Positions 38,208-38,757 of a stretch of DNA of 64,000 bases are shown here, piece by piece. The stretch is from Chthonomonas sp. (GTDB lineage Bacteria; Armatimonadota; Fimbriimonadia; Fimbriimonadales; Fimbriimonadaceae). Under the pieces are notes generated by a model. It was not told the origin of the DNA and did no database searches. It worked only from the letters and a program-made list of their open reading frames with translations. The stretch's first letter is position 1. Every line of letters starts with the position of its first letter. The DNA lies in NCBI GenBank assembly GCA_016788585.1, contig JAEURP010000007.1, forward strand, positions 188,001-252,000. The letters run 5' to 3'. Made by a program: the position numbers and the translations under genes.

Positions 38208-38252
38208 GTCACTGAAGAGACATTTTCAAATAATTCGACAATCATCAAACTA

Positions 38253-38275
38253 TTCGATGAGTATCGAAGTATAAT
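38253..38275 (+). promoter_or_regulatory. Promoter and operator of the ArsR/metallothionein unit
   Basis: TATAAT, a perfect -10 box, lies at 38270-38275. Directly before it, TTCGAT and ATCGAA form a perfect palindrome around GAGT at 38253-38268, so a bound repressor would cover the space between -35 and -10. A second ATTCGA lies 19 bases upstream at 38233-38238. The GTG at 38282 begins 7 nt after the -10 box, predicting a leaderless transcript. Confidence 0.7.
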
Positions 38276-38281
38276 GTCATT

Positions 38282-38599
38282 GTGGACGAGGCCCTTAAGA
38301 TCTTTCAGGCGCTGAGCGATTCGACGCGGCTCGCGGTGTTTCAGTGCATTCGCGGGTGCGGCGGCGAGACGGCTTATGACACCGAGACCGGCTGCTGCGA
38401 TGCGACCGAGCCGGGGGCCGTGGCGCTTTGCGATGTGAAATGCCAGGTGCCGTGCTCGCCCAGCACGCTGACGCATCACCTGAACGTGCTTCGCGACGCC
38501 GGGATTATTGAGACTGATCGGCGCGGTAGGCAGGTTTATGTGCAGATCAATGGCGCGGCGCTGGCGAAGGTCGCGAGCTTCTTGGTGAACACAAAGTGA
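38282..38599 (+). CDS. ArsR/SmtB-family metal-sensing repressor, cysteine-rich
   Basis: A 105-residue winged-helix repressor. IFQALSDSTRLAVFQCI is the family's first helix pair, SPSTLTHHLNVLRDAGII the recognition helix, and DRRGRQVYVQI the wing. An unusual Cys-rich stretch between them holds C22, C26, C38, C39, C50, C54 and C58; the last three (C-x3-C-x3-C) sit just before the recognition helix, where ArsR proteins bind thiophilic ions. The metal cannot be told. The start is GTG, likely leaderless. The palindrome in its own promoter suggests autorepression and control of the small Cys-rich gene 41 nt downstream. Confidence 0.9.
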   Translation: MDEALKIFQALSDSTRLAVFQCIRGCGGETAYDTETGCCDATEPGAVALCDVKCQVPCSPSTLTHHLNVLRDAGIIETDRRGRQVYVQINGAALAKVASFLVNTK

Positions 38600-38640
38600 C
38601 AGGTTTTGGCCTTCACCGGCTGAAAAAGGAGAAGAAAACT

Positions 38641-38724
38641 ATGGAAAACAACAACTCCTGCGGATGCGGTTGCGTATGCTGCGGAAATGGTTGCTGTGGC
38701 AAGTGCTCTTGCTGCGGCGGCTAA
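38641..38724 (+). CDS. 27-residue metallothionein-like protein
   Basis: A tiny ORF with a very good ribosome-binding site: AAGGAG at 38626-38631, 9 nt before ATG. It encodes 27 residues, ten of them Cys (positions 7, 9, 11, 13, 14, 18, 19, 22, 24, 25) and eight Gly, with only one Lys and one Glu as charged side chains. C-x-C, C-C and C-x2-C spacing is that of metallothioneins, which sequester Cu(I), Zn(II) or Cd(II) as thiolate clusters. Known bacterial examples (SmtA, MymT) are about twice this size; the closest size match is fungal copper metallothionein. It follows an ArsR-type repressor and precedes a strong terminator. Confidence 0.8.
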   Translation: MENNNSCGCGCVCCGNGCCGKCSCCGG

Positions 38725-38731
38725 TCTTAGT

Positions 38732-38757
38732 GGGGCTGGTCGCAAGGCCGGCCCCTT
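38732..38757 (+). terminator. Hairpin ending the ArsR/metallothionein unit
   Basis: GGGGCTGGTC and GGCCGGCCCC pair over 10 bp, with two T-G wobbles, around a GCAA tetraloop, 7 nt after the metallothionein stop. The T-run after it is short (TT, then TTCTT). Confidence 0.75.

Follow-up and report, generated by a model that had tools for sequence, protein, structure and literature searches.

A 27-codon metallothionein-like gene behind an ArsR/SmtB-family repressor in Chthonomonas sp. and its likely place in a two-promoter regulon

The window (the whole 64-kb stretch of DNA that was analysed) carries on one strand a compact unit that can be read from the sequence: a tandem operator, a -10 hexamer, an arsR gene, a ribosome-binding site (RBS), a 27-codon ORF (mt27), and a hairpin. 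Its features are as follows.

38234..38249, no strand assigned: O2, an additional, imperfect copy of the operator, TTCGACAATCATCAAA, lying 19 bp upstream of O1 across the -35 region
38253..38268, no strand assigned: O1, a perfect palindromic operator, TTCGATGAGTATCGAA, a unique pattern in the genome
38270..38275, + strand: -10 hexamer TATAAT, one base past O1, read from the sequence and with its layout kept in relatives
38282..38599, + strand: ArsR/SmtB-family repressor, 105 aa, GTG start at 38282, based on profile matches and a structure model
38623..38632, + strand: RBS of mt27, AAAAAGGAG, read from the sequence
38641..38724, + strand: mt27, a single-module metallothionein-like ORF, MENNNSCGCGCVCCGNGCCGKCSCCGG, 27 aa with ten Cys
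38732..38755, + strand: hairpin with a GCAA loop, the probable 3′ end of the operon, -24.4 kcal/mol, z -3.96

The initial annotation had described the palindrome, TATAAT, the 105-residue repressor with seven Cys, the RBS, the 27-codon ORF with ten Cys, and the GCAA hairpin, and all of these hold when read directly. It had missed O2 and the fact that the start codon lies roughly where transcription is predicted to begin, and it needs correcting in that no TTGACA-like -35 hexamer is found at the arsR promoter.

The ORF mt27 begins with ATG at 38641, ends with the stop codon at 38722-38724, and follows arsR co-directionally after a gap of 41 bp. Gene callers skip genes of fewer than about 50 codons. 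Cysteines make up more than one-third of the product (10/27 residues), and mt27 is the only ORF in the window with at least eight Cys and at least 25% Cys; 30 dinucleotide shuffles of the window gave no ORF with at least eight Cys and 25% Cys. Downstream, terminator prediction did not call the hairpin at 38732-38755 an intrinsic terminator, its U tract being weak. Inverted repeats occupy the same place in several other repressor-peptide operons.

With the 27-mer as query, a paralogous gene, mt45, was found elsewhere in the same genome (G000:C17:8159-8296). It encodes 45 residues with 17 Cys arranged in two modules, MENETKTCGCACCADGCCEKCTCTTGGPCGCECCADGCCENCTCC, and is 56% identical to mt27. 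A profile built from all peptides missed the window's own copy, which marks the limit of short Cys-rich profiles; it was the direct 27-mer search that recovered mt45. Further 27-mer matches in G064, G262, G195, G184, and G091 were read and are not credible genes of the mt27 kind. Neither mt27 nor mt45 contains His or aromatic residues, as read from the sequence, and both meet the broad traits of metallothioneins, being small and Cys-rich, with CxC/CC motifs and few or no aromatics. About 1.7 kb from mt45 lies a P-type ATPase gene of the CadA/ZntA type (TIGR01512, 489 bits against a cut-off of 313.5; the copper model stays under its cut-off), and a CusA/CzcA pump gene comes next after it. Between mt45 and the ATPase gene, a minus-strand frame (L208:9278-9901) combines signal-peptide-like with CC/CCC-rich stretches, possibly marking exported Cys-rich proteins; a comparable frame in G008 has 91 aa (L155:4573-4848).

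The operator pattern connects the two Cys-rich genes. The sequence upstream of mt45 is TTTGATGAACATCGAAGTATAAT and the window counterpart is TTCGATGAGTATCGAAGTATAAT. Within the window, TTYGAYN4RTYRAA occurs at O1 and O2 only, and across the whole 2.38-Mb genome (G000) TTYGATN4ATCRAA has two copies, one before arsR-mt27 and the other before mt45. The genome is a draft of 27 contigs with mt45 on a contig of 13.7 kb, and mis-binning of that contig is conceivable; it is argued against because mt45 and arsR-mt27 have the operator in common. The exact palindrome TTCGATN4ATCGAA has one copy per genome in G000, G118, G119, and G120, each before this repressor gene, and a reversed control pattern has zero copies in these four genomes. 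G120 and G144 have the tandem arrangement as well, again at 19-bp spacing. Operator-like sites away from arsR in G020, G080, G120, G144, and G112 were rejected, as they are without a Cys-rich gene and lie mostly within coding frames. The palindrome is confined to these promoters and overlaps them, and we infer from the sequence, without binding data, that it is an operator through which the repressor would regulate its own gene. Moreover, the arsR start codon lies only 6 nt past the -10 hexamer and that of mt45 9 nt past. The -10/start layout of arsR is the same in G120, G118, G119, and G116 and similar before mt45, and the 6-nt spacing also appears in several relatives. The start codon thus falls at about the predicted transcription start, and it is therefore likely, as inferred from the sequence, that both the arsR and mt45 messages are leaderless.

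Several lines of evidence place the repressor in the ArsR/SmtB family. It matches NCBIfam HTH_metalloreg (NF033788; 58.6 bits, cut-off 55) and, above their cut-offs, both Pfam HTH_20 (PF12840) and HTH_5 (PF01022). The AlphaFold model (pLDDT 78) shows a winged helix with a two-strand wing and helices at residues 3-11, 14-26, 49-55, 60-72, and 91-103; part of the loop 27-45 is modelled with low confidence. The PDB matches include SrnR, ArsR-like proteins, CzrA, CadC, and SmtB. The seven Cys are placed at the end of helix 2 (22/26), in the loop (38/39), in helix 3 (50/54), and just before helix 4 (58). Compared with SmtB, the repressor is Cys-rich and is without the alpha-5 Zn site, its last helix (91-103) having no His, Asp, or Glu. 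It shares the winged helix and Cys in helix 3 with the CadC/ArsR-type (LCVC) repressors; however, the ELCVCDL motif of these sensors is absent, ALCDVKCQVPC stands in its place in helix 3, and there are extra Cys at the end of helix 2 and in the long loop.

Close relatives of the repressor occur in 13/291 genomes of the phylum, the own genome included. Directly behind the repressor gene lies a Cys-rich ORF of 27 aa in G000, 28 aa in G111, 25 aa in G120, and 26 aa in G118 and G119, and in G008, which belongs to another family, one of 43 aa with 13 Cys. The pairing of the repressor with a Cys-rich ORF of 25-43 aa is thus found in six genomes, which are spread over different genera and reach into one further family. 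In the tree all six peptide-linked repressors fall into one clade of 11 (support 100/99), none is among the 15 other relatives, two of which precede arsM-like genes, and five of the 11 clade members have no such ORF. A search of 603 kb of repressor-profile loci from a public genome collection gave ORFs above the same Cys thresholds in only three, each directly behind this repressor type. A single-protein scan of genome contigs gave no match; an alignment scan returned mainly the same Armatimonadota loci together with distant ArsR genes from other phyla, the latter without such ORFs. Plasmid ArsR matches were rejected as close relatives, those listed being at most 35% identical. In G144 (L186:6615-7343) and G116 (L187:9369-10097), the position of the Cys-rich ORF is taken by a pseudopilin-like gene whose start codon forms an ATGA overlap with the stop codon of the repressor gene. 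The peptides encoded after the repressor vary in Cys spacing between genera, and they may not all be homologous. For the same reason of spacing, the common ancestry of the CGC-type peptides of the own genome and the CPCC-type peptides of the relatives is undecided.

The peptides themselves form a wider family. A search with a 26-aa relative revealed two-module proteins (42-48 aa, 14-16 Cys) in nine genomes: G113, G114, and G115 of the same genus, G127, G129, G130, and G138, then G142 and G155. The relatives thus comprise one-module versions of 25-28 aa and two-module versions of 42-48 aa. Related two-module proteins keep 16/16 Cys in six species, and in the six genes compared every difference in a Cys codon is the synonymous TGC/TGT exchange. 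A second ArsR type, with an LCVC motif, is paired with the peptide family in G118, G119, G129, G130, and G138. It precedes the two-module gene in G129, G130, and G138, and probably in G142, as inferred there from an overlapping antisense frame; no ArsR gene adjoins the two-module gene in G113-G115, G127, and G155. We take it that the peptide family has here been linked independently to a different repressor. Examples of this second ArsR type, LCVCEMVDALELGQSTLS, directly before one- or two-module ORFs are seen at L143:1777-2166 and 2115-2243 and at L145, L146, and L150 (G119, G138, G129, and G130). In five genomes the Cys-rich ORF is followed by a gene whose small product carries RPRWR and GTSSDRIFSP-like motifs (L169:1451-1933, L168:5616-6032, L150:2642-3103, L151:799-1302, and L165:3788-4264), the one tested having no Pfam match. 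Similar frames lie behind the repressor in G080 and G008, and the protein is possibly an outer-membrane partner. No relatives of the two-module peptides were found in plasmids and viral contigs, the only places searched outside the phylum.

No Pfam or NCBIfam model is matched by the peptides, and seven of them gave no match to PF02069, the SmtA family, to which an SmtA control matches at 1.5e-20. Fungal and mycobacterial metallothioneins, used as further controls, likewise match no Pfam or NCBIfam model; the missing match is therefore no argument against a metallothionein.

Near relatives show something of the local history. In G114, whose Fpg is 95% identical, the ROK and Fpg sides are conserved with other genes between them, and in G113 another gene occupies the arsR-mt27 position. 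The whole arsR-mt27 unit is absent between the same flanking genes in these nearest relatives, and it was therefore gained here or lost there. Could the 27-codon ORF then be a chance open frame? In favour are its very small size, the lack of a match to any family model, and its absence from the same spot in near relatives. Against this stand the shuffles, which never gave such an ORF, a paralogue under the same operator, and the recurrence behind the same repressor clade, and we consider chance practically ruled out.

The initial annotation had claimed that an ArsR repressor controls a metallothionein-like protein, a claim to be refuted if no ORF were conserved at this spot in relatives or if the Cys codons showed no protein constraint. 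The claim is supported by the recurrence, by an operator found at two Cys-rich genes only, and by the synonymous Cys-codon changes. Conservation at the same spot fails literally, the nearest relatives being without the unit, but the unit recurs elsewhere. Constraint on Cys codons holds in the related two-module family, where changes are synonymous only; mt27 itself has no close orthologue, so that for its own Cys codons constraint is inferred from comparison with the paralogue. The claim that the unit follows SmtB/SmtA logic is likewise supported, with the refinements that there is a second promoter with a 45-aa paralogue, that the peptides are not of the SmtA family, and that the repressor has no alpha-5 site.

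The identity of the metal can only be inferred from neighbour genes, which point to Zn/Cd in some genomes, to Cu in G080, and to As in the sister clade. In G119, and in G118 as far as read, the LCVC-type ArsR gene and the 26-aa peptide gene are followed by a cluster of TolC-like, CzcB-like, CzcA, and Cd/Zn-type ATPase genes. The repressor lies beside a CzcA pump and a P-II gene in G024 and near a CzcA-like cluster in G008. In G024 the P-II family gene (L189:4588-4911) comes directly behind the CusA/CzcA-type pump gene, and by metal loci in G129 (L168:4962-5606) and G080 (L188:6244-6948) a weak YHS-domain match is fused to a thioredoxin-like domain. We favour Zn/Cd, with Cu next and As still possible.

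Two rival metals were weighed. In a copper unit, the repressor would sense Cu(I) and the peptide would be a counterpart of the short fungal Cu(I) metallothionein. In size and Cys density the peptide is similar to that fungal protein of roughly 25 residues, and in G080 genes for a CopA-type ATPase and for a regulator of the CsoR family lie near the repressor gene. However, the ATPase near mt45 is of the Cd/Zn type with the copper model under its cut-off, and the same holds for G119; copper may nevertheless be the metal. In an arsenic unit, the Cys cluster of the repressor would serve to sense As(III), and the peptide would act as an As(III)-thiolate buffer. This would fit the sister clade, where the repressor gene stands before arsM-like methyltransferase genes (G217 and G220), and As(III)-responsive ArsR structures are also among the PDB matches. 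However, no arsenic gene was seen beside the peptide-linked members, around which stand genes for CzcA-type pumps, for ATPases of the CadA/ZntA or CopA type, and for a CsoR-family protein, and the Cys pattern of the sister-clade repressors differs from that of the window repressor. We find the arsenic reading improbable. A third reading dispenses with metal storage altogether and makes the ORF product a thiol/redox buffer or a precursor from which a modified peptide is made. High Cys content alone does not discriminate here; however, the neighbourhoods read contain no obvious peptide-modifying enzyme, there is no leader-core layout, and the genes are linked to metal pumps and metal-type repressors, which leaves this reading with very little in its favour.

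The preferred reading, a metallothionein unit, has known counterparts. SmtB/SmtA of Synechococcus and BxmR/BmtA and AzuR/NmtA of other cyanobacteria likewise combine an ArsR/SmtB repressor with inverted-repeat operator(s) at a metallothionein promoter, and in Anabaena the targets of AzuR include an unlinked metallothionein gene (PMC8790569). The differences are clear: the operator here is 6-4-6 (TTCGAT-N4-ATCGAA) and the SmtB-type operator 12-2-12, and the genes here are co-directional whereas smtB/smtA are divergent. Unlike SmtA, the peptides have 25-48 aa and no PF02069 match, and mt27 and mt45, being without His, do not meet the SmtA criterion of His ligands and a zinc-finger subdomain. By analogy, the function would parallel that of SmtB/SmtA, yet the peptides are not SmtA-family members. 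MymT of Mycobacterium tuberculosis, a small copper metallothionein rich in Cys, does not belong to the SmtA family (PMC10612145, PMC7387436), and in being small, bacterial, Cys-rich, and outside that family the peptides resemble it; no sequence relation is seen. MymT has about 53 aa and fewer Cys. The Neurospora crassa copper metallothionein has about 25 residues, one module, CxC motifs, and 7 Cys; it is eukaryotic, and the likeness is of size and composition only. The open-licence literature searched gave nothing relevant on the smallest metallothionein, the short fungal one, or metallothioneins in Armatimonadetes.

Collectively, arsR-mt27 and mt45 likely constitute a two-promoter metallothionein regulon, although metal binding, repression, and expression are inferred. 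In the proposed mechanism, the apo-repressor would occupy O1 and O2 and block RNA polymerase. A thiophilic metal, most likely Zn(II)/Cd(II) and next Cu(I), would bind the thiolates of Cys 22/26, 38/39 (in the flexible loop), and 50/54/58, the putative sensing region; the metal-bound repressor would then release the DNA, giving largely leaderless mRNA, and mt27 and mt45 would both be made. With the 27-aa protein taken as one module and the 45-aa protein as two, each module may bind about three to four divalent ions in thiolate clusters, or a larger number in the case of Cu(I), and the peptides would serve as a metal buffer until the ions are exported by the pumps.

Few families of metallothioneins have been described in bacteria. 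A bolder reading is that the peptides represent an undescribed single-module family (9-10 Cys in ~25 residues), smaller than any other known from bacteria, with a two-module form, two types of ArsR partner, and a complete two-promoter leaderless regulon in this genome; taking all these parts jointly, we consider it more likely than not. With mt27 and the two-module mt45 under the same switch, the organism would possess a natural minimal metallothionein, and the pair suggests module duplication within one genome. The search rule that follows, a Cys-rich micro-ORF behind an ArsR gene, may reveal many more.
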